The notes below the pieces were generated by a model. The model was not told the origin of the DNA. It did no database searches and saw only the letters and a list, made by a program, of their open reading frames with translations. 41,636 nucleotides of DNA from a virus: positions 1 to 41,636 of the IMG/VR virus record IMGVR_UViG_3300025810_001415, one strand, 5' to 3'. Below, piece by piece: positions 1,081 through 40,779 of this stretch; position 1 is the stretch's first letter, and the number at the start of each line of letters is the position of its first letter. Made by a program: the position numbers and the translations under genes.

Positions 1081-1088
1081 TATAAATA
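1081..1088 (+). promoter_or_regulatory. T4-type late promoter box, leaderless arrangement
   Basis: A perfect TATAAATA lies exactly 5 nt before the ATG at 1094. In T4 the box occupies about -13 to -6, which puts the predicted +1 on the A of the ATG. Confidence 0.75.
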
Positions 1089-6953: not shown

Positions 6954-8116
6954 TATGCTATTACCTCAGTTGCTAGTACATCGTAGTTATTATACACAAA
7001 ACTATAGCTAGTGTCAACATGTTCAAGTTCTAAAAAGTTATCAAACGTTTGATTCCAATTTTGTGTTTGTACAAGATCATTGAACATTCGTATTATCTCA
7101 CTGTCCTGGCTTTCTCTACCTAACCAATAATGATAAAACGCCTGCATTCTTTCAATGGGCGGAACATCTTGTGTTTGGATACCATTCATAGCAAACCAAC
7201 GTGCCATAGTTCCCAATGTTTCATCTCCACTGTCTACTAGATTGATCCAGTTGTCCAGTTCTGTTTGACTGGGATTTCTACCTTCAAATATTTCAAACAC
7301 TGCTTCGACTTTTACACGAGTATCAATACTAGGATCTGTGTTTGTGATTTCATCTATTTTTTGCACATAGTCTCCACTGTCAAAATCATACACACTGTTC
7401 TTTTCCAGTATAGTTCTAACACTGCTTTCACTGATAGTATTGTGTTCGCTTTTGATCAATGCAACCTGCGCCGCCACTCTAGGAGCACTAAAGCTGGTTC
7501 CTTCTATACCCCAACCATCTCCATTTTCATAATAGTGTACTACAGCAGATCCTTTGTTGCTCCAATCATAAATATCACCGTCATATTGACTGTAAGCACC
7601 AACTACAATAGGAAAAATACTACTAGCCCAAGTAGCTACTGCCGCATCATGTAGCCCGTCATTGCCAGCGGCAGCGGTAACGGTCACCCCATTCTCCCAC
7701 AGTGTTTGATTTGATTGCAAATATGCATCATCATGTGTGTAGGTGTTGTAATTGTCCATGTGCGGATAATCTGTATTACGTTTACTGCCCCAACTTACAT
7801 TGATAACATCAGGATCAAAATCTTGATATGCTCTTAGCATTGGATCTGGTGTTTTGTCGACATCTACATCTTCTGCAATTACAGTTACTTCTTTGTGATC
7901 GTTTAAGAATTCACCATAAAAATTTTGCAGCACCAAAGGACCGTGTGTAGTAGGTCCTTGAAAGGTGTCCAGGATCACTGCTACAGGTTCACTGTTGCCG
8001 GATATCTTAGGTACATCAGCTGTAGCAGTTTCTTGTTTACTACTACCACAAGCTGATAACAATCCAGTTAAACTGATCCATTGAAACTCTTTATTAGATT
8101 TAGATTTTTTATTCAT
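6953..8116 (-). CDS. Subtilisin-family (S8) protease, predicted lipoprotein, DUF4214-like tail
   Basis: A 387-aa protein. The N-terminus has a basic start, a short hydrophobic stretch and the lipobox LSAC (about Cys 22), so it is probably exported and lipid-anchored. Catalytic residues fit S8: Asp and His in VILDTFQGPTTHG, the oxyanion Asn in AAAGNDG, and the nucleophile in GTSFSAP. Asp and His are unusually close, as in some marine subtilase subgroups. The C-terminal third has two DUF4214-like segments (VFEIFEGRNPSQTELDNWIN and YHYWLGRESQDSEI). The start overlaps the GAPDH stop as ATGA. A secreted protease inside a metabolic/replication operon is odd; targets are unknown. Confidence 0.85.
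   Translation of the reverse strand: MNKKSKSNKEFQWISLTGLLSACGSSKQETATADVPKISGNSEPVAVILDTFQGPTTHGPLVLQNFYGEFLNDHKEVTVIAEDVDVDKTPDPMLRAYQDFDPDVINVSWGSKRNTDYPHMDNYNTYTHDDAYLQSNQTLWENGVTVTAAAGNDGLHDAAVATWASSIFPIVVGAYSQYDGDIYDWSNKGSAVVHYYENGDGWGIEGTSFSAPRVAAQVALIKSEHNTISESSVRTILEKNSVYDFDSGDYVQKIDEITNTDPSIDTRVKVEAVFEIFEGRNPSQTELDNWINLVDSGDETLGTMARWFAMNGIQTQDVPPIERMQAFYHYWLGRESQDSEIIRMFNDLVQTQNWNQTFDNFLELEHVDTSYSFVYNNYDVLATEVIA
6989..7017 (-). promoter_or_regulatory. Consensus promoter inside the subtilase gene
   Basis: TTGACA (7012-7017), a 17-bp spacer, and TATAAT (6989-6994). This is the best sigma70 match in the window. It lies in the last 70 bp of the subtilase coding region and would drive the clamp loader with a leader of about 30 nt. 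Confidence 0.7.
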
Positions 8117-9078
8117 TGTAAAGTCATCATGTGTGCTGCTACATCTGCCATGCGGCAACTAAATGCCCATTCATTATCATACCATGCTAGTACACGAACC
8201 AAATGATTGTCAACTACTCTTGTTTGTTCTGGTGCAAAAATACAACTTTCTTTTGTGGTGTTAAAGTCACTGCTTACCAGTGGCAATGGTTGATAGGCTA
8301 TAATGCCACGCATGTCATTTTTACTAGCACTTGCTACTGCTTCATTGACCAATTTTTCATTGACTTCTTGCTCAAGTTGCACAGTCAAATCCACACAACT
8401 CACATTTTGTGTTGGTACTCTAATAGCACTGCCCATGATTTTGTTTTTGAGTTTTGGATACACATGTTGCAGTGCCTTTGCTGCACCTGTACTGGTAGGT
8501 ATAATATTCGATCCTGCTGCTCTAGCTCTATACAAGTCTCTGTGTCGTTTGTCAATAGTACCTTGGTCACCTGTGTAACTGTGTACAGTTGTCATTTGTC
8601 CATTTATAATACCAAACTGTTCATCTAATACTTTTACTAGTGGAGCAAGACAGTTTGTTGTACAACTGGCATTACTAACAATGTTTTCTGAACTGGTTAT
8701 GTCTTGATGATTAACACCATAAACAACTGTGCGTTTTACGTCTGCAGCCGGAGCACTGATTACTACTTTTTTAGCACCGTTAAGAGTATGGTTAAGACAT
8801 TTTAACCCGTTGTTGTATGCTCCTGTGCATTCTAGTACAACATCAACACCGTGCCATTTTAACTGTTCTATATCTCGTTCTTCTGTCCACAGTATCGGCT
8901 CGTGTATGGGACCTTTATATGTTCCGTGAACTGTGTCATATTTTAGCAAATGCATATTTGTTTCTTCGCCACCGCTGGCATTGATTTGTACAATCTGCAT
9001 ATCATTGCGTTCACTCATGATGTGTCTGGCAACACAACGTCCTATTCTTCCAAATCCATTTATACCTATACTGATCAT
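8113..9078 (-). CDS. gap: Glyceraldehyde-3-phosphate dehydrogenase, GapB-like cofactor site
   Basis: A 321-aa enzyme, near full length. It interconverts glyceraldehyde-3-phosphate and 1,3-bisphosphoglycerate. Motifs: the Rossmann start INGFGRIGR, catalytic Cys in NASCTTNC, catalytic His in TTVHSYTGDQ, RARAAGSNIIPTSTGAAKA, and the terminal WYDNEW. After the second strand the sequence is QINASGGEE: the Asp that selects NAD in glycolytic enzymes is Ala, as in Bacillus GapB, which prefers NADP(H) and runs gluconeogenically. That cofactor preference is inference. It is coupled to its neighbours by ATGA overlaps. Confidence 0.95.
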   Translation of the reverse strand: MISIGINGFGRIGRCVARHIMSERNDMQIVQINASGGEETNMHLLKYDTVHGTYKGPIHEPILWTEERDIEQLKWHGVDVVLECTGAYNNGLKCLNHTLNGAKKVVISAPAADVKRTVVYGVNHQDITSSENIVSNASCTTNCLAPLVKVLDEQFGIINGQMTTVHSYTGDQGTIDKRHRDLYRARAAGSNIIPTSTGAAKALQHVYPKLKNKIMGSAIRVPTQNVSCVDLTVQLEQEVNEKLVNEAVASASKNDMRGIIAYQPLPLVSSDFNTTKESCIFAPEQTRVVDNHLVRVLAWYDNEWAFSCRMADVAAHMMTLQ

Positions 9079-10509: not shown

Positions 10510-11700
10510 TTACTCCGTTATTAATTGTTCTAATGTCTTCAAGACATCTCGGCTATTATCTTCTACTTCTAAGTCTATAGCAGTTTTAACACAGTTTCTT
10601 GTAAAGTCAAGTGAATATCTAACACCACTTGAATCCATACCTGTGTTGATCAAATACACATTACAGTTGTGTTGTTCAATTTTTTTCATCAATAGATCAC
10701 TGTACACACTAACTGCTCTTGGCATAAAAGGTGAACCGTAACAAGGACTAAACAGTGGTTTGATTTCATCAGTGCCAGCTTCTGTTCCTGGCATTTGACT
10801 GGTGTATCCTGTTTCAAAGAAACGTCTGACTGTGTCGCCTGATATTTTGCTAACAGGTGGAAACACTCCTTTGGCATCCATTGTTAAAAAGAATATGTTA
10901 TCAGGGTGATCAAACTGTTGTGGTTCATGATAGGCATTCTCCACACAATCAATTGGATAGCTCAGTCGTGCATTTGCTGCACCTGGATTTTCAACTACTA
11001 ATGTATCACGAGATCTTGCAAGTTCAACAGCATCAAATATTGTTTTGTGTGTTTCTGGTGTTAAGCCTTCGCTTTTAGCATAACAACCTGTTTCGATCAT
11101 TTCAATACCTTGATCGTTCCAAGCAATTTCGTCGTCACCTATCAGTTTGTAATCGGGATCACTGCTCAGTGTTGTTTTACCAGTACCACTCAATCCAAAC
11201 ATCAAGTTGGTTGTGTCGTTGTAGGTAAATGCACTGCAATGCATCGGCAGTATATCTTGTTCAGGTAATATAAAACTAATAATACCAAATGCACCTTTTT
11301 TGATTTCGCCTAAAAATGTAGTGCCAGCAATCAACATCTCATTGCGATCCAAATGCACATAAATTTTAGGTTCGTCAATTTTTAAATCAGTGTTGTGCAG
11401 TATGATAAAATCTGCAGGTTTGCTTTTTGGTAGTACTGTAAACATGTTGCGCACGAATTGTGCATGTCTGTCGTCGTTGGTACAAACACGAAAACGTATG
11501 CCAGCACTAACAAATTCTAAATCATGTGCGTAGTTTTCCAAACTCCACATTTGATTGTAAAAAGCATCGTAATCAGACTGATTGCCAATTTTGTTGTACT
11601 TGGGTCTAGTTAAATCTAAATGTTGTGTTTTGTCACCAAAAAAGTATTTTTTTTCTGGACTACGTCCCGTAGGAGACGTAGTAATTTCTATGTTAGGCAT
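10510..11700 (-). CDS. pckA: ATP-dependent phosphoenolpyruvate carboxykinase, shortened
   Basis: A 396-aa enzyme converting oxaloacetate and ATP to PEP, CO2 and ADP, the entry step of gluconeogenesis. Key residues can be matched to E. coli PckA: the substrate Arg in TGRSPEKKYF, metal Lys in GEIKKGAF, metal His in MHCSAF, P-loop GLSGTGKTTLSS, metal Asp in IGDDE, Arg in ARLSYP, and DAKGVFPPVSKIS. The usual Tyr in YAGE is Phe. E. coli PckA has about 540 residues; this copy lacks part of the N-terminal domain and the last 60-100 residues, yet keeps the active site. It is coupled to the upstream gene by TAATG. Confidence 0.93.
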   Translation of the reverse strand: MPNIEITTSPTGRSPEKKYFFGDKTQHLDLTRPKYNKIGNQSDYDAFYNQMWSLENYAHDLEFVSAGIRFRVCTNDDRHAQFVRNMFTVLPKSKPADFIILHNTDLKIDEPKIYVHLDRNEMLIAGTTFLGEIKKGAFGIISFILPEQDILPMHCSAFTYNDTTNLMFGLSGTGKTTLSSDPDYKLIGDDEIAWNDQGIEMIETGCYAKSEGLTPETHKTIFDAVELARSRDTLVVENPGAANARLSYPIDCVENAYHEPQQFDHPDNIFFLTMDAKGVFPPVSKISGDTVRRFFETGYTSQMPGTEAGTDEIKPLFSPCYGSPFMPRAVSVYSDLLMKKIEQHNCNVYLINTGMDSSGVRYSLDFTRNCVKTAIDLEVEDNSRDVLKTLEQLITE

Positions 11701-13979: not shown

Positions 13980-14657
13980 TTACTCTCTATTTCCTAATAA
14001 ATGCAGCAACATTTGGAATAAGTTGATAAAGTTTAGATATAAGCTAATAGCAAACTGAATGCCGTAGCGTGGATCACCACCATGATTTACATAAATGTTT
14101 TTTGCATTTTGTGTGTCCCAAGCAGTTAAACCTGTAAACACAATTACACCAATGATACTGATTGCAAACTGCAATCCACTGCTTGCTAAAAAGATGTTTA
14201 CTATCATTGCAATGATGATACCAATCAATCCCATGAGCAAGAAGTGTCCAAAACCTGTCAGGTCTCGTTTGGTTGTATAGCCCCAAAGACTAGCACTGAG
14301 AAATGTTGCGGCTGTAATAAAAAACACTTGTGCAATGCTAGCACCTGTGTATACAGCAAAAATAGGAGCAAGTCCTACACCCATGACTATAACAAATGTA
14401 TAGTAGAAGTTTCTCAGTGTTGGATAACTCCAATTGCGTCCTGCAAAACTATACCACAAAATCATACCCAATGGAGCAAGTGCAAACAACCACAATGAGC
14501 CTGCCATTTGATAAAGCAGTCCGCTACTGTAAACAAACCATGCAACTGCTCCACTTACAGCCAATCCTGCCGCTGTGTGGTTGTACATATTAAGCATGAA
14601 TTCACGCAAGCCTTCATCGTATAATTTTTGTTGTCTAAGAGCTTCAATACTCATCAT
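13980..14657 (-). CDS. Bax inhibitor-1/YccA family membrane protein
   Basis: A 225-aa protein with seven hydrophobic helices. BI-1 signatures: LREFMLNMYNHTAAGLAVSG near the N-terminus, SLWGYTTKRDLTGFGHFLLMGLIG in the middle, and TGLTAWDTQNAKN near the C-terminus. Bacterial members (YbhL, YccA) leak calcium/protons or inhibit FtsH-dependent proteolysis of membrane proteins. A YccA-like role against host FtsH is a tempting inference. The ATG overlaps the MazG stop. Confidence 0.9.
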   Translation of the reverse strand: MMSIEALRQQKLYDEGLREFMLNMYNHTAAGLAVSGAVAWFVYSSGLLYQMAGSLWLFALAPLGMILWYSFAGRNWSYPTLRNFYYTFVIVMGVGLAPIFAVYTGASIAQVFFITAATFLSASLWGYTTKRDLTGFGHFLLMGLIGIIIAMIVNIFLASSGLQFAISIIGVIVFTGLTAWDTQNAKNIYVNHGGDPRYGIQFAISLYLNFINLFQMLLHLLGNRE

Positions 14658-15061: not shown

Positions 15062-15376
15062 TTATACCTCTATATCTATTACAGCACCTTGCTGTATCTG
15101 TTGTTTTTTAAAAAATGCTTGTAATCTTAAATCTTCAAGAATATCTTTTATTTGATCTGATTTTTCATGCCATTTTTTTAACATGTCTATAGCAACTTCT
15201 GTTCTAGTTGCTTGGTCCACTACTCTAATTTTTTCTTTGTTAACTGGAGGAGCAATATTTTCACTATTAGCAAAAGGAAGTATACCGTTACTGGAAACAC
15301 TTTTATCAGTATCAGAAAATGGCATCCTACTAGTAGGATCTAACATTTGCTGTTGCTTTACTATGTGTGTGTCCAT
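15062..15376 (-). CDS. Hypothetical 104-aa protein
   Basis: Starts MDTHIVKQQQMLDPTSRMPF; the ATG overlaps the aldolase stop as TAATG. The N-terminal half is disordered and polar, the C-terminal half a charged helix (MLKKWHEKSDQIKDILEDLR). No known domain. It lies between MazG and aldolase in a continuous operon. Confidence 0.6.
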   Translation of the reverse strand: MDTHIVKQQQMLDPTSRMPFSDTDKSVSSNGILPFANSENIAPPVNKEKIRVVDQATRTEVAIDMLKKWHEKSDQIKDILEDLRLQAFFKKQQIQQGAVIDIEV

Positions 15377-16179
15377 TATGGTGTGTTTCCTGCTGCAACA
15401 ATATCAGCTATATTTTGACTGAGTTGTGCGTTAAATTCGTCATCACTTTGTGTAACCAGTAGTCCTTCGCTTAATCCTCTGCTAAAACTAGCAGTCATGT
15501 CTTGGTTTTGGCTCAGCCGCCTGCATGCTTCTTCAGTTGTGTACCCGCCGCTGAGACCAACAATTTTGTTTACTGTGTTATACATCAGCAGATCTTGATA
15601 TAAATTTGCTTGTTCAGGTAGTGTTAATTTAAGTATAACACTACCGTTGAAATTATTCAAGTATTTTCCTAGTTTTCTTTTTAAACTCTTTTCTAGCGTC
15701 GATTTCTGTTCATGCTCTATCGGAACTTCTGGTTCGACAATTGGAATTAATCCACTATTGCTGATGTCTTGTGCAATAGCAAACTGTTGATGCAGAACAT
15801 CATCTAGATATTTTTCACTTTTAACAATACTGCGCATTTTAGTACCAACGCACTTGTTTAGGTGTGCAAAATGTATCATATCAACCACATCAAAGTCTTT
15901 GAGTGTGCCGTCTTCTTCACAACCACTGTCAACTTTTAGTATTGCACGAATACCTTTTTTCTCTAGTACAGGAACTATTCCTCTGTCTACTGTATCTTTA
16001 TAAAGTATAGCATGACTGATGTTATTGCTGTTGAAATCTGAATTAGCAACCATTCTCAATCGCATTGCATGCACAAGATCCATTTTATTTTCTTCTGTGT
16101 ATTCTTGACCATATCTTTCTAGTACGCCCCCTGTACTACCACCACTGTGATCCATTGCTGCAATAAATGTATTACTCAT
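15376..16179 (-). CDS. fda: Class I fructose-1,6-bisphosphate aldolase
   Basis: A 267-aa Schiff-base aldolase of the bacterial class I family (usual length about 295). It condenses dihydroxyacetone phosphate and glyceraldehyde-3-phosphate or cleaves the product. Motifs in order: FIAAMDHSGGSTGGVL, AILKVDSG, VGTKMRSI, IPIVEPEV, the Schiff-base Lys in VILKLTLPEQ, and VGLSGGYTTEEA with SFSRGL. The start at 16179 has AGGAG 6 nt upstream; the long in-frame N-terminal extension is rejected because it lies over the HAD gene. It is somewhat short at the N-terminus. With PckA and GAPDH it supports a gluconeogenic set. Confidence 0.93.
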   Translation of the reverse strand: MSNTFIAAMDHSGGSTGGVLERYGQEYTEENKMDLVHAMRLRMVANSDFNSNNISHAILYKDTVDRGIVPVLEKKGIRAILKVDSGCEEDGTLKDFDVVDMIHFAHLNKCVGTKMRSIVKSEKYLDDVLHQQFAIAQDISNSGLIPIVEPEVPIEHEQKSTLEKSLKRKLGKYLNNFNGSVILKLTLPEQANLYQDLLMYNTVNKIVGLSGGYTTEEACRRLSQNQDMTASFSRGLSEGLLVTQSDDEFNAQLSQNIADIVAAGNTP

Positions 16180-16510
16180 AAGTTTCTCCTGTTTCACGAA
16201 AAAAGTTTTCACTCCAAAATGCTTTGTCGTCAATCCAAACATCATAATGTTCTTTTTTACCAACACTGAGCTCGTGATATTTTGCACCCCATTTATCCAA
16301 TTGATTTTTAGTTAAATCAAGATAATCTACGCCGCTACTGATTCCTCGTGCTGTCATGTACTTGATCGTGTGTCCTTGATCATACAGTCTATTAACTTTA
16401 GCAATTCTATCCATGTAAGGAATATGATTTGCATAATCTTTTTTACCACCGCTGTCGGGTATAATTACTTCTTGGCAAATTGTACCATCTATATCTATAA
16501 CATATTTCAT
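16172..16510 (-). CDS. HAD-superfamily phosphatase
   Basis: A 112-aa minimal HAD protein. Motif I is DIDGTI (residues 6-11), motif II a Thr in KYMTARGIS, and motif III/IV a Lys in SVGKKEHYDVWIDDKAF with paired Asp. There is no cap domain, so large substrates or nucleotides are possible. It overlaps the aldolase start by 8 nt and its ATG overlaps the Prs stop as ATGA. Its position suggests a sugar-phosphate or nucleotide phosphatase, but the substrate cannot be inferred. Confidence 0.75.
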   Translation of the reverse strand: MKYVIDIDGTICQEVIIPDSGGKKDYANHIPYMDRIAKVNRLYDQGHTIKYMTARGISSGVDYLDLTKNQLDKWGAKYHELSVGKKEHYDVWIDDKAFWSENFFRETGETYE

Positions 16511-17430
16511 TGGAATAAACTACTTACACTTTCTTCATTTGTGATTCTACGCATTGCTTCACCAAACAGTGGAGCAACACTTACTTGACGTATTTTTTTA
16601 CTTGTTCCTGTATAAGGAATACTATCACTGACAACAAGTTCTTGTAAATTACTTGCATCAATTTTCTTTTGAGCGCCATTGCTAAGAACACCATGTGTGA
16701 TATATGCTCTAACACTGAGCGCACCTGCTTCTAGAATTGCATCTGCTGCTTTGCACAGTGTACCTCCACTGTCAACAATGTCATCTACTAGGATAGCATG
16801 TTTGCCTTTTACATCTCCAATCAGTGCCATAACTTCAGCAACACCTGCTCGAGGTCTGCGTTTGTCAACAATAGCAATATCTCCGTGAAACATGTCAGCA
16901 AACTTACGGGCTCTTACTGCACCGCCAGCATCTGGACTTACAAATACACAGCCTTCTTCTTTGTTAATTTTAGATTCAATATCTTTAGCAAATACTACTC
17001 TACTAGTAAGATCATCTACTGGAATATCAAAAAATCCTTGTATCTGTCCTGCATGTAAATCCATTGTGAGAATTCTATCAGCGCCTGCTTTAGTAAGCAA
17101 GTCTGCTACTAGTTTTGCTGTAATTGGTGTACGACTTGCACTTTTACGATCTTGTCTTGCATAACCATAATATGGAATTACCGTTGTGATTCTTCTTGCA
17201 CTGCTACGCTTTGCAGTGTCTATCATAATCAACAATTCCATTAAACTTTCATTTACAGGAGAACAAGTGCTATTCACTAAAAAAACATCCTTGCCCCGGA
17301 TGTTTTCTTTTACTTCTACACATATTTCTCCATCATTGAACCTGTTTAGATCTGCTGGTACGAGATCCACAAAACAGTGTTCTGCAACCTTTTGGGCAAA
17401 AGGCTGATTACTGCTACCAGTAACGATTTT
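16507..17430 (-). CDS. prs: Ribose-phosphate pyrophosphokinase (PRPP synthetase)
   Basis: A 307-aa enzyme, near the usual length of about 312. It makes PRPP from ribose-5-phosphate and ATP for purine, pyrimidine and NAD synthesis. Motifs: DGEICVEVKENIRG, IPYYGYARQDRK, the metal/ATP loop TMDLHAGQIQGFF, PDAGGAVRARKFA, KRRPRAG, and the PRPP loop ILVDDIVDSGGTL. The start at 17430 is set by GGAGG before the ATG. It lies upstream of HAD phosphatase, aldolase and MazG in one operon. Confidence 0.95.
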   Translation of the reverse strand, partial: KIVTGSSNQPFAQKVAEHCFVDLVPADLNRFNDGEICVEVKENIRGKDVFLVNSTCSPVNESLMELLIMIDTAKRSSARRITTVIPYYGYARQDRKSASRTPITAKLVADLLTKAGADRILTMDLHAGQIQGFFDIPVDDLTSRVVFAKDIESKINKEEGCVFVSPDAGGAVRARKFADMFHGDIAIVDKRRPRAGVAEVMALIGDVKGKHAILVDDIVDSGGTLCKAADAILEAGALSVRAYITHGVLSNGAQKKIDASNLQELVVSDSIPYTGTSKKIRQVSVAPLFGEAMRRITNEESVSSLFQ

Positions 17431-17444
17431 CATTCGCGCCTCCG

Positions 17445-17750
17445 TTAAACTGCGAAACTTTCCCCACAACCACATGATGCAGTTGCATTAGGATTCTTTA
17501 CGGTCAAATAACTACCGCCTAATTCATTGATGTAATCCACTGTACAACCAAACACAAACATTTCAGCCATGGGGTCTAGAACTAGTATGTCCTCAAACAC
17601 CGTGCCGTCTGGTTCATCAGTAAATGTCCATTCATACTGAAAGCCACTGCACCCGCCGCCTTTGACTGCCAAGTTTACAAACTTTTTATCGTGTTGCTTG
17701 GTCATGTTTATCAAATAGTCTTTAGCTGATTCAGTAACTGTTAGTATCAT
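17445..17750 (-). CDS. A-type iron-sulfur carrier (IscA/ErpA/SufA family)
   Basis: A 101-aa protein with the three conserved cysteines: KGGGCSGFQYEW (about residue 34) and SCGCGESF near the C-terminus. A-type carriers hold a [2Fe-2S] or [4Fe-4S] cluster and pass it to apoproteins. A ferredoxin and a SufT-like protein are encoded within 2 kb, suggesting a small Fe-S maturation group. The start overlaps the thermonuclease stop as ATGA. Confidence 0.92.
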   Translation of the reverse strand: MILTVTESAKDYLINMTKQHDKKFVNLAVKGGGCSGFQYEWTFTDEPDGTVFEDILVLDPMAEMFVFGCTVDYINELGGSYLTVKNPNATASCGCGESFAV

Positions 17751-19880: not shown

Positions 19881-20486
19881 TTATACCTCTTGTATTGAGG
19901 GGGCGGAATGTTTATAGTGGGTCGATCCCTGTTTAGTCCACTCGTCATATTTAGCGTAGGCTATTTGTATTGCTTTGGCTTGATAGTAACTGTCAGCCAG
20001 TGCATTGTGCAAATCCTGTTGCATGGTTTTCCTTGGATCACTTGGCAGCAAACTCAAAAATGTTCTACCGTCTTTTACCTGCCAAAAGTTCCAAGGTATT
20101 GGTGTGGACAATTGACGATACATATCTTCTACAATAGTAACATCAAAACCATATCCATGTCCCCATAATACATCGACACCCACCATCCATTTGGTCAAAT
20201 GGTCTAGAAAGTGTTTCAGCCCGACTCTGTCGTCTTCTCTAAAGGCTTCTTCTTTTACTCGGGGATCCTGTTTTGCCCACCACTCAATTGTGTCGTCAGT
20301 GACTGTGCGTCCTAAACGATCTTGTTCATCTAAGTCTAAACGAAAATAAAATTCACTGTGAGGTTCATTTGTGCTGTATGGATCAAACTTTACACCGCCC
20401 ACTGTGAGGACGGTGCATCTTGGACTGGTATCCAATGTTTCCAAATCAATCATTCCATGTATCGCCACGTGACCTCCAACGTTCAT
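19881..20486 (-). CDS. dexA: DexA-like DEDD 3'-5' exonuclease
   Basis: A 201-aa protein. Exo I is MIDLETLDTSP (Asp and Glu, residues 14-16), exo II GHGYGFDVTIVEDM, and exo III HNALADSYYQA. T4 DexA is of this type and degrades DNA. The start at 20486 gives the first beta strand (HVAIHGMIDLET); an in-frame ATG at 20453 would leave out most of that strand. A TATAAT promoter lies only about 12 bp before the ATG, so the leader would be very short. It is followed by the QueD-like gene after 1 bp. Confidence 0.82.
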   Translation of the reverse strand: MNVGGHVAIHGMIDLETLDTSPRCTVLTVGGVKFDPYSTNEPHSEFYFRLDLDEQDRLGRTVTDDTIEWWAKQDPRVKEEAFREDDRVGLKHFLDHLTKWMVGVDVLWGHGYGFDVTIVEDMYRQLSTPIPWNFWQVKDGRTFLSLLPSDPRKTMQQDLHNALADSYYQAKAIQIAYAKYDEWTKQGSTHYKHSAPSIQEV

Positions 20487-27789: not shown

Positions 27790-27822
27790 GTAAAAAATAA
27801 AAAAACCACTGGTGTGGTTTTT
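27790..27822 (-). terminator. Rho-independent terminator of the tmRNA transcript
   Basis: AAAAACCAC and GTGGTTTTT (27801-27822) form a stem with a 4-nt loop, followed on the minus strand by a long T-rich run. It sits directly past the tmRNA. Confidence 0.8.
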
Positions 27823-28085
27823 GTACAACGATTCTGTTGCCAGGTTCGTTGCCAACCCCTACTTACCTAAATTAGGCAGCTAGTGCCATTTCTGGCGCAC
27901 GATTGTCATTTGCAATTGTGATTTTTGACTAATAACGCAGTCATCCGGTTAACTCCACTTCACTTTCACACCTGTCGATCCTAATTTCTCGCCCATAAAA
28001 AACACACTTATCTAAATGTGCTTATGGTGGACGAGTGCGGTACCGCCCCGCAGTCCAGTATGTGTCCACGTTGCTTCAACGCTAA
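27823..28085 (-). ncRNA. ssrA: Circularly permuted two-piece tmRNA
   Basis: Transcribed leftward. The acceptor piece comes first and ends CTCGTCC-A-CCA (28025-28035, CCA encoded). After a 30-nt spacer the coding piece begins GGGCGAG (27988-27994), which pairs with CTCGTCC as a 7-bp acceptor stem containing G3-U70, the alanine identity pair. Then come GGATCGACAGG (conserved core) and the tag frame at 27872-27913, GCA...TAA, encoding ANDNRAPEMALAA. Permuted tmRNAs are typical of alphaproteobacteria. The T-arm can be drawn TGCGG-GGCGGTA-CCGCA, whose loop lacks the usual TTC. A perfect TATAAATA late box precedes the gene, and a terminator follows. Ends are approximate. Confidence 0.93.
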
Positions 28086-28089
28086 CAGT

Positions 28090-28665
28090 TTATTTATACA
28101 GCCTTTGTTTGATAATGTCAACCGCTCTTTGACTAAGAACAATTTCATAATGATTGCGGTCCACTTGTTCGTATTCTACATCTGTTCTGCATGTCATACT
28201 TTTATAGGTAACTATACCGTCATTGCGACCACTGAGCCAAGGCACATCTCCTACAGTGGTTAGTACTTGTGTCCAAGGTATTGTGATTGGTGTGCGTCTA
28301 CTGTCTCGTATAAAACTGCTAGTAGGAGCAATGTCTCTGAACAGTTGATATCCAGGATTTAACATGCTGCCCCAACTGGCTATTTCACTACCACCAAAAG
28401 GAGTAGCAAGACTAACACACCCAACGCTGCGACCTTCAAAATGTTTTTGCAAATATGTTGCGTATATGCCACCCAAACTGTGTACAATGTAAAAGAATGA
28501 TCCTTTTTCATTTTCTAGTGTGTCATACATGACCTGCAAGTTGTCTTTTGCAGTTGTACTTTTATCATAGTTTAGGTATAAGGGTTTTTTAGCACCGATG
28601 CTTTTTTGCACAAATGCAAAACTGCGCTCACTTGCAGTGGCGCCATGTATGTATACAATCTTCAT
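28090..28665 (-). CDS. Alpha/beta-hydrolase (lipase/esterase-like), leaderless late gene
   Basis: A 191-aa protein. The oxyanion HG is in VYIHGATAS, the nucleophile in YIVHSLGGIYA (GxSxG variant HSLGG), and the probable Asp and His in SGRNDGIVTY and QVDRNHYEIV. It has no signal peptide. The ATG lies 5 nt after an ATTAAATA late box. Its last codons form the tmRNA's late box. A second lipase of another family is at 30223. Substrates are unknown; phospholipid or acyl ester attack during lysis or entry is possible. Confidence 0.8.
   Translation of the reverse strand: MKIVYIHGATASERSFAFVQKSIGAKKPLYLNYDKSTTAKDNLQVMYDTLENEKGSFFYIVHSLGGIYATYLQKHFEGRSVGCVSLATPFGGSEIASWGSMLNPGYQLFRDIAPTSSFIRDSRRTPITIPWTQVLTTVGDVPWLSGRNDGIVTYKSMTCRTDVEYEQVDRNHYEIVLSQRAVDIIKQRLYK
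28091..28098 (-). promoter_or_regulatory. Perfect T4-type late box for the tmRNA
   Basis: TATAAATA on the minus strand, made from the last two codons and stop of the hydrolase (TAT AAA TAA). The predicted +1 is 28085, just upstream of the acceptor piece. Confidence 0.75.
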
Positions 28666-28964: not shown

Positions 28965-29510
28965 TTAAAAATTGAGATAATCGTTTACTTTTTGGTTGGC
29001 GCTCATTTCTATACCTCGTTCCCATTGATTGTTAGGATTCACATTCCATATCAATTCTTCACGATAAGGAAGATTGGTCCACAAACTTTTGCCCATTGTT
29101 CTACTGCCAAACATTTCGCTTTCTAGCTGCCCAGCTCCCCAACTGCAATGACCTACAACTATTCTCCAATACTGAGGAAATTGATTGTTGTTGAACAAAT
29201 TAATAATTTGTTTGTCTCTGGTTACAATTAAATTGTCTTGTAGTTCAATACTGGTTGGTAATATAATATCACTACTGTGCATCACATAAACTTGGTTTAT
29301 CTCGACAGGCCCGCCGTAATAGATAGGAGCATTTATAGCCAATTGCATGCTTTTGCGCAATTTAACACTCACACGTTGTTCAAGTTCTTTGTTGAGTATC
29401 CATCCGTGTGCGCCGTCGCCGTTGTGTTCGTCAACGTATACAATACTTTTTCTAAAATTGTTATCTCCCAGTGTAGGAAGACTAACCAGTATTTGTTTTT
29501 GCATGTTCAT
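28965..29510 (-). CDS. YqgE/AlgH (UPF0301, DUF179) family protein
   Basis: A 181-aa protein, the family length. Signatures: SLPTLGDNNFRKSIVYVDEHN at the N-terminus, HGWILNKE, YYGGPVEINQVYVMH in the middle, and GHCSWGAGQLESEMF toward the end. AlgH affects alginate and virulence gene expression in Pseudomonas, but its molecular role is unclear. The start overlaps the upstream stop as TAATG. It is an unusual gene for a phage. Confidence 0.9.
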   Translation of the reverse strand: MNMQKQILVSLPTLGDNNFRKSIVYVDEHNGDGAHGWILNKELEQRVSVKLRKSMQLAINAPIYYGGPVEINQVYVMHSSDIILPTSIELQDNLIVTRDKQIINLFNNNQFPQYWRIVVGHCSWGAGQLESEMFGSRTMGKSLWTNLPYREELIWNVNPNNQWERGIEMSANQKVNDYLNF

Positions 29511-29786: not shown

Positions 29787-30251
29787 ATGGACGCAGAAAT
29801 AATGAACGCAGGCGAGGTGGGCCTAGAAGTCACCAATTTATTAATGCCATTTATAAGTGCATTACTTGTTTTAGTCATAACACTATGGTTTAAAGATTTT
29901 GCAACTAAGATTGCAAAAGGTATGATGTTCAAAATGAACAAAGCCTTCAACGAAGGTGATACAGTTATATTAGACGGTAATGACGCACTCATTGTAAGAA
30001 TAGGACTCAGTGAAACTGTGTTTGGCGTATACAGTGACAGAGGATATACATGGCGTTATGTTCCCAATGAACGTATTCCATTTTTAAAACTTGAAAAAGT
30101 AATCAACAAAGATCTCCATTTAGACACTGAAGCTGAGAAAGCTGAAAAACTTCAATCATTGATTGACAGAGTACAAGACAATAAAATTGATCAAAATTCA
30201 CAAGCTATAGAGGAGATTAAAAATGGTAACGGACGTAAACGTAAAAGTTGA
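29787..30251 (+). CDS. MscS-like beta-domain membrane protein
   Basis: A 154-aa protein. One transmembrane helix (about residues 18-38, LMPFISALLVLVITLWF) is followed by KIAKGMMFKMNKAFNEGDTV and a beta domain (VILDGNDALIVRIGLSETVF), which resembles the pore-exit helix and Sm-like domain of mechanosensitive MscS channels. The C-terminus is a charged helix. It lacks the two other MscS helices, so it is unlikely to be a full channel and might act on host MscS. The 3' end overlaps the lipase start and carries its GAGGAG. Confidence 0.55.
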   Translation: MDAEIMNAGEVGLEVTNLLMPFISALLVLVITLWFKDFATKIAKGMMFKMNKAFNEGDTVILDGNDALIVRIGLSETVFGVYSDRGYTWRYVPNERIPFLKLEKVINKDLHLDTEAEKAEKLQSLIDRVQDNKIDQNSQAIEEIKNGNGRKRKS

Positions 30252-30981
30252 ATTTAGTTATAATAATGCACTACACTTTGCAGAGTTAGCCAATCTTGCT
30301 TATCAAGAAGAAAAAGTTTTTAAAAAAACAGCTTCTGCTATGGGTTATAAAAATATCAAATACTTCAATGTTGATGGTGCTCAAGCATATGGTATGAGTA
30401 AAAACGACTATATTGTACTGGCATTCAGAGGTACCGAGCCCACACAGTTTAACGATATCAAAGCGGATCTAAATGCACTACATGTTCGCAACGAGTTAGG
30501 TAAAGGTCGTGTACACAAAGGTTTCAAAGCGGAGGTTGATGATATTTGGGATCAAATTGAAGCCTGGATTATCAAACGCAAGTTCACACAAGCATACACT
30601 TGCGGTCATAGTTTAGGCGGAGCAATGAGTACTATTGCTTGTAGTAGATTGCCCCAAGGATCAATATGTTATAATTATGGTAGTCCTCGTGTTGGCACAC
30701 CCGGTTGGGTCAAAGAGTTTAATAGCAAATTTACACTGTATAGGTTTGTAAACAACAACGATATTGTTCCAAGAGTTCCTTTTGCAGTTATGTGCTATAA
30801 ACATGCAGGTAACTTACACTATATCAACACATATGGTAACATTCGTAATGCAACTGCATGGCAAAGATTCAAAGATAGATTCAGAGGATATCGTGCTGCT
30901 TTTAAAAAGCGTCAATGGTTCGACAGCATTTATGATCACGGCATGTCAAACTATATAAAACGTATCAGAGAGCAGTGTTAG
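30223..30981 (+). CDS. Class 3 lipase (Lipase_3 family)
   Basis: A 252-aa protein of the fungal-type lipase family. The nucleophile is in CGHSLGGAMSTIA, the Asp in VNNNDIVPRVP and the His in YDHGMSNYI. The upstream strand has IVLAFRGTEP, the usual RGT oxyanion motif. No signal peptide is seen. GAGGAG precedes the ATG, which lies inside the upstream gene. The family attacks triacylglycerols or phospholipids. With the hydrolase at 28090 it makes two esterases under late control. Confidence 0.9.
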   Translation: MVTDVNVKVEFSYNNALHFAELANLAYQEEKVFKKTASAMGYKNIKYFNVDGAQAYGMSKNDYIVLAFRGTEPTQFNDIKADLNALHVRNELGKGRVHKGFKAEVDDIWDQIEAWIIKRKFTQAYTCGHSLGGAMSTIACSRLPQGSICYNYGSPRVGTPGWVKEFNSKFTLYRFVNNNDIVPRVPFAVMCYKHAGNLHYINTYGNIRNATAWQRFKDRFRGYRAAFKKRQWFDSIYDHGMSNYIKRIREQC

Positions 30982-33809: not shown

Positions 33810-33817
33810 TATTTATT
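33810..33817 (-). promoter_or_regulatory. T4-type late box, leaderless arrangement
   Basis: AATAAATA on the minus strand, 5 nt (GTTGC) before the ATG at 33804. It overlaps the GMP reductase stop codon. Confidence 0.75.
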
Positions 33818-34928
33818 AATTTCCGGTAGTTGTGCTTTCATATGTTCGATTGAACTGGTTGTGTACTCTAATAAAAGTTGTACACTTTGCTAGTTGCTTG
33901 AGTTTTTGAGCACCTACGTATGTTAGTGTACTGCGAACACCACCTAAAATATCTTGAACTGTTGACATAACAGCGCCGCGATAAGGCACAAGAACTGTGC
34001 GTCCTTCACTGCTACGATAGTCTTTAAGACCTTCGAAATGTTTGTCGTTGGCAGTTTTACTACTCATTCCGTAGAATTGTACAAATAGTTTTTCTTCTAC
34101 TGCATGCTGTTCTGTACCATCTTCGTGTATAATAAATTCATTTGATTTGTAAAGTTTTTGTATAATTTCACCACCGCCTTCATCGTGTCCAGCAAGCATT
34201 CCACCTAGCATCACAAAGTCAGCACCGGCAGCAAAAGCCTTTGCCACATCACCAGGACAAGTACAACCGCCGTCAGCAATAATATGTCCTCCCAGCCCAT
34301 GCGCCGCATCAGCACACTCAATAACCGCACTAAGTTGGGGATAGCCCACCCCAGTTTGTATGCGAGTCGTACAAACCGACCCTGGCCCGATTCCGACTTT
34401 GACGATGTCTGCTCCATTTAGTATTAACTCCTGTGTTTGATCTGCTGTAACAACGTTGCCAGCAATGATCACAATATCAGGATACAGCGTTCTAAATTCT
34501 TTGACATATTCTATAAAACGCTGACTGTATCCATTGGCAACATCAATACAAACGTATTTAAGATGATTACCAACTTGTTCATACACTGTGCGAAACTTGT
34601 CTTGATCTTCTTGTTTAATACCAATACTCATAGCAACATTGTCTGTGCGTGTAGGCATGTCACTGTCAAAGTAATCTATCAATTCTTGCACACTGTATGT
34701 TTTTACAAGACAAGTAAAAATACCATTTTCTGCTAGTTTGTCTGCCATAGCAAAAGTACCAACACCATCCATGTTGCTAGCCATAATTGGAATGCCTTCG
34801 TAATTTTGACCATGTGCAAATGTAAATGTACGCTCCATGCGTACTTCTTTGCGTGAACCCAAAGTACTACGCTTTGGACGGATCAAGACATCACTGTAGT
34901 CCAACTTTGTTTCATCTTCAATTCTCAT
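33816..34928 (-). CDS. guaC: GMP reductase
   Basis: A 370-aa enzyme of the IMPDH/GMPR family. It resembles GuaC from its first residues ([20 protein letters not shown]) and lacks the CBS insertion of IMP dehydrogenases. It converts GMP to IMP with NADPH. The catalytic Cys is in [17 protein letters not shown], phosphate and substrate contacts in [20 protein letters not shown] and [12 protein letters not shown], and the mobile loop has YGMSSKTA. It would recycle host GMP into the purine pool. The start follows the ClpS stop with no gap. Confidence 0.93.
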
Positions 34929-35236: not shown

Positions 35237-35244
35237 TATTTATC
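35237..35244 (-). promoter_or_regulatory. T4-type late box, leaderless arrangement
   Basis: GATAAATA on the minus strand, 5 nt (CTAGT) before the ClpS ATG at 35231. It would also serve GMP reductase downstream. Confidence 0.75.
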
Positions 35245-35279: not shown

Positions 35280-35711
35280 TTATTTTATTTCAATAGTACG
35301 TGGTTTTTTCTCTTCTGGAATAATACGTTCTAGTTCGATAAACAACATACCATTTTCCATACGTGAACCATTAACCACAACATCATCTGCTAGTGTAAAG
35401 TTACGTTTGAACTTACGCTGACTGATGCCTTTGTGGATCCATGTCCAGCCTGGTTGTTCAACTTCGCCTTCTGGATTGTGTTCAATTGTAAGTACACCTT
35501 CTGCTACAGTGATTTCCAAATCTTCTTTGGCAATACCTGCTAGTGCAATTTCAATTTGAAACTTGTCACCATCACGAACAATGTTGTAAGGTGGATAACC
35601 TGTGCTATTGGCATTGTGTTGTACATATTTGAACATATCGTCAAATACTCTATCAAAGCCTACTGCATAAGGGGTGAGTTTGTTAATGTCTAATGTAGTT
35701 AATCTGTTCAT
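35280..35711 (-). CDS. hsp20: Small heat-shock protein Hsp20 (IbpA-like)
   Basis: A 143-aa alpha-crystallin domain protein. YPPYNIVRDGDKFQIEIALA, GVLTIEHN and FKRNFTLADDVVVNGSRMEN with GMLFIEL form the beta sandwich. The C-terminal IEIK carries an IxI-like anchor. It holds unfolded proteins. Hsp20 is common in T4-like cyanophages. The start is set by GGAG before ATG at 35711. It is the second gene of a late operon with the phasin-like gene. Confidence 0.92.
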   Translation of the reverse strand: MNRLTTLDINKLTPYAVGFDRVFDDMFKYVQHNANSTGYPPYNIVRDGDKFQIEIALAGIAKEDLEITVAEGVLTIEHNPEGEVEQPGWTWIHKGISQRKFKRNFTLADDVVVNGSRMENGMLFIELERIIPEEKKPRTIEIK

Positions 35712-35722
35712 AGCTTCTCTCC

Positions 35723-35920
35723 TTACGCTTTCAATGCCGCTGTATATGCGGTTGTCATTGATTCTGTTGCGTTTGCCCAAGTTTTAGCAAATTCAGTATT
35801 TGCTTCAGCCATAGCTTTAACAGGCTTTGTGTACTGTTCACTTGGATCAATTGTGTTTAGGAAAGTTTTTGTTTGTGTGTGGATTTGATCCACAAGGTTA
35901 TTAAAATATTGTGCTTGCAT
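35723..35920 (-). CDS. Phasin-like small protein (65 aa)
   Basis: Reads MQAQYFNNLVDQIHTQTKTF and ends SMTTAYTAALKA, two amphipathic helices typical of short phasins. AAGGAG precedes the ATG. Phasins coat polyhydroxyalkanoate granules and can act as chaperones, which would suit its neighbour Hsp20. The family call is tentative because the protein is short. Confidence 0.5.
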   Translation of the reverse strand: MQAQYFNNLVDQIHTQTKTFLNTIDPSEQYTKPVKAMAEANTEFAKTWANATESMTTAYTAALKA

Positions 35921-36469: not shown

Positions 36470-36697
36470 TTACCAATTTTCTTTATTTTTTTCAACAGTT
36501 TTTAACCAACGTTTTCTAGCTTGTGCTTTCTCACGTTTTTTCTTAGCACTTGGTTTTTCGTAATATTCTTTAGATCTTAGATCTTTTATAACGCCTTCTT
36601 GATTTACTAATTTTTTAAGTTTGCGTAAAGCACGACCTACATCATTATTACGAACTTCTACATAAAGTCCTTGTTTTTCAGTTCTATCTCTGCTCAT
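36470..36697 (-). CDS. rpsU: Ribosomal protein bS21
   Basis: A 75-aa bS21 homologue: VEVRNNDVGRALRKLKKLVN, then the conserved YYEKPSAKKKREKAQARKRW. In E. coli S21 sits by the anti-Shine-Dalgarno end of 16S rRNA and helps initiation. Phage S21 genes are known in large phages and in pelagiphages and may replace the host copy on ribosomes. The ATG overlaps the IF-3 stop as ATGA, so both are made together. Confidence 0.93.
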   Translation of the reverse strand: MSRDRTEKQGLYVEVRNNDVGRALRKLKKLVNQEGVIKDLRSKEYYEKPSAKKKREKAQARKRWLKTVEKNKENW

Positions 36698-37221
36698 TCT
36701 TTCCTCGTTAGTACACCGATTAATCGGTTTCCATTTAGATTTGGCTTGCTTTCCCAGTCAGTATTTTCTAGACTTTCAGTAATACGATCAATTATCGCAA
36801 ACCCTTGTTGTTTATTGGCATTTTCTCTGCCTTTATATCGTATTACACATTTTACTTTGTTGCCTTTGCTTAAAAACTTTTCAATGTTTTTGAGTTTTAT
36901 GTCAAAATCATGATCACCAATTCCCAATCTAAACTGAACTTCTTTGATTACAATTTGATTTTCACGCTGTTTTTTAGCTGCTTCTTTTTCACGTCTTTTT
37001 TGTTCGTAGAAATATTTATTAGCATCTAATAGTTTAGCTACCGGCGGATCGCTTTTTTCACTTATTACTACTAGGTCTGTTTGGTGTTGTTTAGCTAATT
37101 CCAATGCCTGGTCTAAACTAACAATTCCAAATTGTTGATCTTCTCCGACTACTCTCAGTGTATTGTGCTGTATATTTTCGTTTATAGGTTGCTTAGGTGC
37201 AACTTTTTGAAATCTACGCAT
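36694..37221 (-). CDS. infC: Translation initiation factor IF-3
   Basis: A 175-aa protein with both IF-3 domains. N-terminal: PINENIQHNTLRVVGEDQQF then GIVSLDQALELA and VVISEKSDPPVAKLLD. Linker and C-terminal: KYFYEQKRREKEAAKKQREN, IKEVQFRLGIGDHDFDIKLK, FLSKGNKVKCVIRYKGRE. IF-3 keeps the 30S subunit free, checks the start codon and selects against leaderless mRNA. The start overlaps the upstream gene by 8 nt. The gene order IF-3 then bS21 forms a translation cassette. Length and signature residues suggest a working protein. Confidence 0.95.
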   Translation of the reverse strand: MRRFQKVAPKQPINENIQHNTLRVVGEDQQFGIVSLDQALELAKQHQTDLVVISEKSDPPVAKLLDANKYFYEQKRREKEAAKKQRENQIVIKEVQFRLGIGDHDFDIKLKNIEKFLSKGNKVKCVIRYKGRENANKQQGFAIIDRITESLENTDWESKPNLNGNRLIGVLTRKE

Positions 37222-37648
37222 CAAGTACACTCTCTAGTACCATATCGCTGTATTCGTCGATGCTGTCTACAATAGTAAATTTTTTATTTTGTATTGTCAT
37301 GCTGTTTAACAGTTTTACTAGTCCTTTCTTTTTGTTACGCTGATTTATAAAAATAGTTGTTTTGCTACTCAATAAAATTAGTGCAAGGCTAAGTTCGTTA
37401 ACATCATCCAAATCTACATAAACTGTGTCGCTAAATCTAACCATACTTATTACCCAAGCACTATTAGACTCTGTTACCTTGCCATTTGGATGATACAGTG
37501 TAACACTGACATTTTTAAAAATATTTTCATACAATAATTCAATTTTTTGTACAAAGTCAGCACTACTACTTATTACTGTTATAATAGGCCCGCTTTCTGG
37601 CAACATCATATCAGGCGGAGTTACTGTGTATATTGCGTTTTCCCTCAT
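37214..37648 (-). CDS. Hypothetical 144-aa protein
   Basis: Starts MRENAIYTVTPPDMMLPESG; AAGGAC lies upstream. An alternating alpha/beta pattern (IITVISSSADFVQKIELLYE, TVYVDLDDVNELSLALILLS, TTIFINQRNKKKGLVKLLN) suggests a three-layer fold. No catalytic motif is seen. It is coupled to IF-3 by an 8-nt overlap. Confidence 0.65.
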   Translation of the reverse strand: MRENAIYTVTPPDMMLPESGPIITVISSSADFVQKIELLYENIFKNVSVTLYHPNGKVTESNSAWVISMVRFSDTVYVDLDDVNELSLALILLSSKTTIFINQRNKKKGLVKLLNSMTIQNKKFTIVDSIDEYSDMVLESVLDA

Positions 37649-40771: not shown

Positions 40772-40779
40772 TATTTATG
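40772..40779 (-). promoter_or_regulatory. T4-type late box, leaderless arrangement
   Basis: CATAAATA on the minus strand, 5 nt (ATTGT) before the ATG at 40766, directly after the SleB-type gene's stop. Confidence 0.75.

Follow-up and report, generated by a model that had tools for sequence, protein, structure and literature searches.

Why phages carry tmRNA genes is still debated; the roles suggested in the available text of PMC9004378 include maintenance of the translation machinery that the phage has taken over and the early degradation of host proteins. The locus analysed here raises the question of when during infection such an RNA would be made, and from what kind of promoter. It lies in the window, i.e. 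the whole stretch of DNA that was analysed, which is an entire virus record of 41,636 bases. A preliminary description had placed a phage-encoded, circularly permuted tmRNA under a T4-type late promoter at this site, and had proposed that the phage switches ribosome rescue to its own tmRNA late in infection. The reading that we favour, with a probability of roughly 0.7, is that of a functional two-piece tmRNA of a large T4-related aquatic phage, which is transcribed from a fused sigma70/late promoter and would serve ribosome rescue throughout infection.

A permuted two-piece tmRNA gene

The gene in the window is a real circularly permuted two-piece tmRNA of the alphaproteobacterial type. The covariance-model check that had been recommended for it gave a full-length match on the minus strand (28125-27822) to Rfam alpha_tmRNA (RF01849), with 115.8 bits against a cut-off of 50, and the merged model tmRNA_permuted (RF04321) scored 114.2 bits against a cut-off of 47; the claim of a phage-encoded permuted tmRNA was thus borne out. 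All of the elements that had been named, i.e. the encoded CCA, the 30-nt spacer and the CTCGTCC/GGGCGAG pairing with G3-U70, were located (Table 1), and they follow the permuted order of acceptor piece, spacer and coding piece. The acceptor stem has 7 of 7 pairs including G3-U70, ARAGORN reads a tag frame that ends in LAA and is followed by a stop, as had been predicted, and the terminator reported after the gene corresponds to a terminator-like hairpin.

Table 1. Predicted features of the tmRNA locus, in the direction of transcription
Feature	Position	Strand	Remarks
Upstream ORF, 191 aa	28090..28665	minus	promoter located in its last codons; without a match in Pfam or PHROG
-35 box TTGACA of the tmRNA promoter	28116..28121	minus	in the 3'-terminal part of the upstream ORF
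TATAAATA box, putatively shared as sigma70 -10 and T4-type late promoter	28091..28098	minus	17 bp behind the -35 box
Acceptor piece of the tmRNA	28025..28085	minus	predicted 5' end near 28085, from promoter spacing
tRNA-like domain	starts GGAC 28056	minus	within the acceptor piece
Acceptor strand CTCGTCC-ACCA	28035-28025	minus	encoded CCA at 28027-28025
Intervening segment between the two pieces, 30 nt	27995..28024	minus	removal presumed
GGGCGAG, start of the coding piece	27994-27988	minus	pairs with CTCGTCC
Coding piece of the tmRNA	27822..27994	minus	3' end approximate
Tag reading frame ANDNRAPEMALAA and stop	27872..27913	minus	ARAGORN
Terminator-like hairpin, U-rich tail	27801..27822	minus	consensus scan

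The window gene resembles alphaproteobacterial tmRNAs (RF01849/RF04321) in its permuted order, encoded CCA, G3-U70 and tag frame, and differs from them in a tag class that looks virus-only and in its fused promoter. Comparison with phage records returned short and weak matches in 8 records.

A two-piece tmRNA in a phage is not new in itself, since such molecules have already been described in marine T4-like phages (Melnitz) in the available text of PMC9004378, where 53 of the 133 unique tmRNA structures from phages are classed as two-piece; the accessible part of PMC11915505 lists 79 unique phage tmRNA sequences. Melnitz, a Methylophilales phage (MZ577097), is the closest parallel, being a T4-like marine phage with a permuted tmRNA of alphaproteobacterial type. 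It differs from the window in its tag, in the neighbours of the gene and in its genome (a 141-kb kyanovirus, against contigs of up to 264 kb in the window group), as well as in a reported glutamine riboswitch, none of which was found in the window at the Rfam gathering threshold. The only phage records matched by the Melnitz tmRNA were the four Melnitz records. The earlier statement that no comparable case had been described therefore does not hold for two-piece tmRNAs in T4-like marine phages. It stands for the promoter: in the accessible portions of the open-licence full-text literature we came across no tmRNA or tRNA gene that is described as having a late or composite promoter.

The promoter of the window tmRNA

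A TATAAATA box is indeed present at the spacing typical of T4-type late promoters, as had been claimed. Two features of this region had been missed, i.e. the overlap of the last codons of the upstream ORF (TAT AAA TAA) with TATAAATA, and the presence of a perfect TTGACA exactly 17 bp upstream of it. The resulting arrangement, TTGACA-N17-TATAAA, has the -35 box, the spacing and the -10 box of a sigma70 promoter, with A instead of T at position 6 of the -10 box. It shares with T4 late promoters the TATAAATA consensus, the spacing to the predicted start (the 5' end deduced for the tmRNA agrees with it) and a genome in which NATAAATA is enriched upstream of genes. It differs from them in its -35 box, since T4 late promoters, which depend on gp55/gp33/gp45, lack a conserved -35 according to the available text of PMC2988020. 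Early and late elements overlap in this one box, overlap being the trait of early-late promoters of the RB49/S-PM2 kind. The motif itself is not rare, with 3 sites in the whole window against about 3.24 expected, and the upstream ORF found no match among phage records.

The late-promoter assignment has therefore survived in part: the motif and its genomic context stand, whereas the perfect, conserved sigma70-type -35 at 17 bp does not belong to a late promoter. The view of a simply late gene, with rescue switched on late, is not supported, given this same TTGACA, which makes early or middle expression of the tmRNA at least as likely, as judged from sequence.

Conservation of the promoter among viral tmRNA genes

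The fused promoter is conserved and specific. The viral tmRNA genes used for counting were chosen among the matches listed on their acceptor domain, regardless of promoter; loci with less than 110 nt upstream were dropped, removal of near-duplicates reduced the set from 106 to 101, and a second set of loci, chosen for the promoter, was excluded from the counts. ARAGORN identified a tmRNA in 62 of these 101 loci, among the matches listed, and 59 of the 62 tags that it read end in AA.

A NATAAATA motif occurs upstream of 51 of the 101 viral tmRNAs among the matches listed, compared with 121 of 5300 random windows. At 38 of these 51 motifs (again among the matches listed) a TTGACA with at least 5 of 6 identities stands 20-28 nt upstream, 29 times in perfect form, while the corresponding figure for late sites before ORFs on the same contigs is 13 of 189, with one perfect copy (Fisher p 3.9e-22, relatedness ignored). 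The first base of the box is T in 37 of the 38 tmRNA composites among the matches listed, vs 90 of the 189 ORF late sites, and the distance from composite to acceptor domain is 34-40 nt in 36 of the 38, among the matches listed. Overall, the 101 tmRNAs listed divide into about 31 with the exact composite (31 or 32, depending on the choice among several late motifs), 6 with a near match, 14 with the late motif only and 50 with none; a previous tally over almost the same set had 35 composites in 107, among the matches listed. The lack of any late motif within 110 nt upstream of those 50 tmRNAs, among the matches listed, argues against the fused reading. Before genes, NATAAATA is enriched 4- to 7-fold in the contigs of all four promoter classes, so many tmRNA carriers look T4-related.

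The details of the promoter are remarkably uniform where it is present. Sixty ARAGORN-read tmRNA genes yielded 37 distinct promoters, of which all have TTGAC[A/T] and 36 have a 17-bp spacer; the -10/late box is TATAAATA in 32 and TATAACTA in 5 (TATAA[A/C]TA in 37/37). This uniformity extends over 34 distinct spacers among the 60 promoters, which fall into 14 clusters, one of them with 33 members. In all 12 relatives whose tmRNA directly follows the upstream ORF, the end of that ORF carries TATAAATA, the tmRNA itself being cut off or partial in two of them (L010 and L013). Two further relatives, in which the tmRNA lies farther off, have lost the motif at the ORF end, and their tmRNA has its own complete copy of the promoter.

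The host genes sampled present a different picture. The acceptor pattern was found in 303 of 385 alphaproteobacterial genomes, yet the composite precedes the acceptor domain in only one of the 385, i.e. the genome with a misbinned phage contig (see below), and NATAAATA occurs in none of 27 non-redundant bacterial tmRNA upstream regions (from 30 loci listed of the 303 matching genomes). The promoter is not universal in phages either: the SAR11 phages Mosig and HTVC008M, as well as DSS3_MAL1, have a tmRNA without the composite. Inspection by eye showed that the tmRNA of the jumbo phage Phosso has a near match only (TTGACT-N16-TGTAAATA), and two further cases, likewise read by eye, argue against the fused reading, i.e. 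a sigma70-type promoter only before the tmRNA of record G016 and a tmRNA without TTGACA in G019, a 264-kb relative.

A box with features of two promoter types

At most 100 nt upstream of called genes, ATAAATA is the top enriched heptamer in the window (8 observed vs 1.03 expected) and in four relatives, G001 (25 vs 2.76), G016 (21 vs 1.79), G019 (42 vs 4.06) and Phosso (41 vs 4.32), an enrichment that the preliminary description had also missed. It is therefore very likely that this group has genuine T4-type late promoters. Enrichment was also seen for TTGACA-N17-TATA, with 9 observed vs 0.28 expected in the window, 22 vs 1.32 in G001 and 9 vs 0.65 in G016. An interim interpretation of TATAAATA as a sigma70 -10 box alone rested on counts over entire sequences, in which the motif is not enriched (12 vs 18.05 expected in G001, 9 vs 11.97 in G016), and was overturned by the counts upstream of genes.

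The tmRNA site combines the two signals. Among the 14 NATAAATA sites of the window, the tmRNA site alone has TTGAC[A/T] at 16-18 bp, and the same holds for 1 of 43 such sites in G001, 0 of 29 in G016, 0 of 71 in G019 and 3 of 72 in Phosso. Moreover, the box is late-like at position 6, where the two consensuses differ, and sigma70-like at its first base, where late sites vary. The former follows from a comparison with other sigma70-like sites, in which position 6 is mostly T (9/11 in the window and 28/32 in G001, both counts including the tmRNA site itself, 25/27 in G016 and 48/54 in G019), whereas all 37 distinct tmRNA promoters have A or C there. Phosso, with T in 1 of 13 sites, has no such preference, which speaks against the fused reading.

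These data bear on two simpler explanations. It is unlikely that the gene has a plain early promoter for host sigma70, whose resemblance to the late motif arose by coincidence or from a host with an uncommon -10 preference. Such a promoter would account for the perfect TTGACA, its 17-bp spacing and the strong enrichment of TTGACA-N17-TATA in the window, G001 and G016, and also for the sigma70-type promoter standing alone in G016 and for the five distinct promoters with TATAACTA, which departs from the late motif; an early promoter was likewise assigned to the Melnitz tmRNA by its authors (available text of PMC9004378), although the tmRNA of this isolate also carries TTGACA-N17-TATAAATA. It would not account for the consistent avoidance of T at position 6 in tmRNA promoters, when T dominates elsewhere in the window, G001, G016 and G019, nor for the retention of the 8-letter box across diverged spacers and the lack of NATAAATA at alphaproteobacterial tmRNA genes among the matches listed.

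Less probable still is a T4-type late promoter only, with TTGACA present by chance or for something else. Although TATAAATA fits the T4 consensus in genomes with ATAAATA enriched before genes, and 13 of the 51 tmRNA late motifs among the matches listed have no good -35, this explanation is at odds with the excess of -35 boxes over other late sites (among the matches listed), with the almost invariable spacing, and with the two relatives in which the displaced tmRNA keeps a complete copy of the promoter that the ORF end has lost.

One box read by two forms of polymerase would fit the constant spacing, a first T as in sigma70 promoters, positions 6-8 as in late promoters and the conservation over diverged spacers, and, on this pattern, the tmRNA is most likely expressed in both phases of infection.

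Several observations concern late sites in general. In the window they include 35237-35244, 33810-33817 and 40772-40779 (minus) and 1081-1088 (plus). Of the late sites that precede ORFs, 5 of 10 in the window, 10 of 33 in G001 and 10 of 57 in G019 have an ATG exactly 5 nt after NATAAATA, but none of the 22 in G016 and none of the 44 in Phosso do; where it occurs, late mRNAs would be leaderless. IF-3 acts against leaderless mRNAs, and a phage IF-3 with both domains is encoded at 36694-37230 (minus) in this phage with its likely leaderless late mRNAs.

Other occurrences of the composite

The exact arrangement TTGAC-N18-TATAAATA is present in 32 of 44 records and the backwards pattern in none of the 44. 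A survey of 2.66 Mb of phage DNA, most of it picked for its tmRNAs or for the neighbour of these, though not for the composite, revealed 53 distinct composites, of which 46 precede a tmRNA, one precedes a tRNA (ARAGORN) and 6 precede other sequences. The latter comprise two before genes for gene-32-type ssDNA-binding proteins, one before an Hsp20 gene, one before an annotated tRNA-Met, one before an NAD synthetase gene, and an apparent second promoter before what seems to be a shortened tmRNA start in L114. Gene 32 is a middle gene in T4. The sole composite of Atu_ph07 precedes tRNA-Asp, while Melnitz has two, one before the tmRNA and one before a hypothetical gene.

Four more records have a composite elsewhere. 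In L199 it is found before an ORF. In L196, L197 and L198 (records G039, G048 and G040) it is followed by a conserved stretch which is neither a tRNA nor a tmRNA, and which is possibly a novel phage RNA. Rfam gave nothing at the composite sites of L196, L198 and L199, and a query with L138 had no match.

Conservation of the tmRNA and its tag

The tmRNA is selected as an RNA, as demonstrated by covariation of the acceptor stem. The acceptor stems of 63 genes with this class of tag come in 7 distinct versions, all of them with 7 of 7 pairs; this count missed 8 further genes and took the best of up to 15 registers per stem, which biases it towards pairing. The G-U at 3:70 is invariant across the 63 genes, and pairs 4:69, 5:68 and 6:67 vary on both sides. 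The gap between the two acceptor strands ranges from 29 to 266 nt in relatives.

The tag class ANDNxAPEMALAA looks viral, and virus-only in the collections searched, i.e. viral contigs and a set in which 84,980 species of bacteria and archaea are represented by one genome apiece. The search, performed with a back-translated pattern, detected 71 matching stretches in viral contigs and one match among the one-per-species genomes, on contig PALK01000009.1. This candidate bacterial carrier (L076, a 'Rickettsiales' MAG) was rejected: a 200-nt stretch of it recurs identically in IMGVR_UViG_2823577039_000001, both sequences have 29,883 bases, and it was therefore taken as a misbinned phage contig. 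When ARAGORN was run over the 72 loci, it read the tag with Y in 44 and with R in 11, and found no tmRNA in 17. The peptide is kept through 27 DNA spellings among the 72 loci, although the search pattern itself fixed the peptide. A tag of this kind would be a clean proteome marker of phage-driven tagging.

At the same locus or nearby, L011-L016, relatives whose upstream ORF shows 65-69% identity, contain tmRNAs with other tags (ANENFALAA, ANENFASEDLRLAA). The differing tags suggest exchange or rapid change of the tmRNA beneath a retained promoter.

tmRNA genes are common integration sites. The notion that the window gene has no function and was left behind when a phage once integrated at, or transduced, a host tmRNA gene draws on that fact, on the discussion of such integration in the available text of PMC9004378 and on the apparent second promoter of L114 with its seemingly shortened tmRNA start, but is the least probable of the explanations considered, since the gene is whole, its acceptor stem has undergone compensatory changes, its tag peptide persists in many spellings (within a pattern that fixed it), its tag class is missing from true bacterial contigs of the one-per-species collection and its promoter is conserved.

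Proposed mode of action

According to the fused-promoter reading, host sigma70 polymerase would use TATAAATA early in infection as the -10 box of a promoter with TTGACA 17 bp upstream, and, after the onset of replication, a gp55-type sigma of the phage, together with the sliding clamp, would read the same TATAAATA as a late promoter. Cleavage of the transcript would yield the two-piece RNA, which would be charged with alanine via G3-U70 and, with the help of host SmpB, would rescue stalled ribosomes throughout infection, adding a tag ending in LAA that would direct the rescued proteins to host proteases. Dual polymerase use, processing, charging, tagging and the benefit to the phage are all inferred.

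Overlapping early and late promoters are reported for protein genes: the review PMC2984593, in its available text, describes them in RB49, S-PM2 and Syn9, where they are said to replace the middle mode in RB49 and S-PM2, and mentions that a few S-PM2 genes of this kind showed no middle profile in Q-PCR. By that description, these phages (said to be without MotA/AsiA) resemble the window in having early and late elements together, there at genes that are middle genes in T4. The window promoter differs in serving a tmRNA (and some tRNAs elsewhere) and in using one box for both readings at a fixed 17-bp spacing.

That many diverged phage tmRNAs are preceded by the fused promoter, while no sampled host tmRNA gene is, suggests a demand for the RNA in both phases and speaks against "early only" as well as "late only" roles. 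We put forward tentatively, as a possibility rather than an expectation, a wider reading, in which T4-related aquatic phages would express stable RNAs, i.e. the two-piece tmRNA and some of the tRNAs, from a bifunctional promoter dedicated to them, whose single TATAAATA box would be read by host sigma70 and by gp55. The phage would then control rescue from the first minutes of infection until lysis; such continuous rescue might displace most host tmRNA and mark its products with a virus-specific tag.

The phage and its gene content

The longest contig with a relative of the upstream ORF has 264,637 bases. The clamp-loader AAA protein of the window is closest to those of jumbo phages, with 55% identity to PA5oct-like phages and 45-46% identity to Atu_ph07 and Phosso, and one structural protein is shared by the window mainly with T4-like cyanophages. 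A gp55-type late sigma was found in G019, in Phosso and in T4, which served as positive control; the same search gave no match in the window, G001 and G016, which are linear and probably fragmentary records. Likewise, none of the 20 viral records searched (most of them probably fragments) yielded an SmpB gene.

The window also contains a set of central-metabolism genes on the minus strand (GAPDH, ATP-type PEP carboxykinase, PRPP synthetase and a member of the IMPDH/GMP-reductase family, with loci at 8113-9078, 10510-11700, 16507-17475 and 33816-34928) and a weak match to class-I aldolase at 15376-16287. Further minus-strand genes encode a Bax1-inhibitor-like membrane protein, an AlgH-like protein, Hsp20 and an Rv2179c-like exoribonuclease (13980-14657, 28965-29510, 35280-35780 and 19881-20486), and a class-3 lipase is encoded on the plus strand at 30223-30981.
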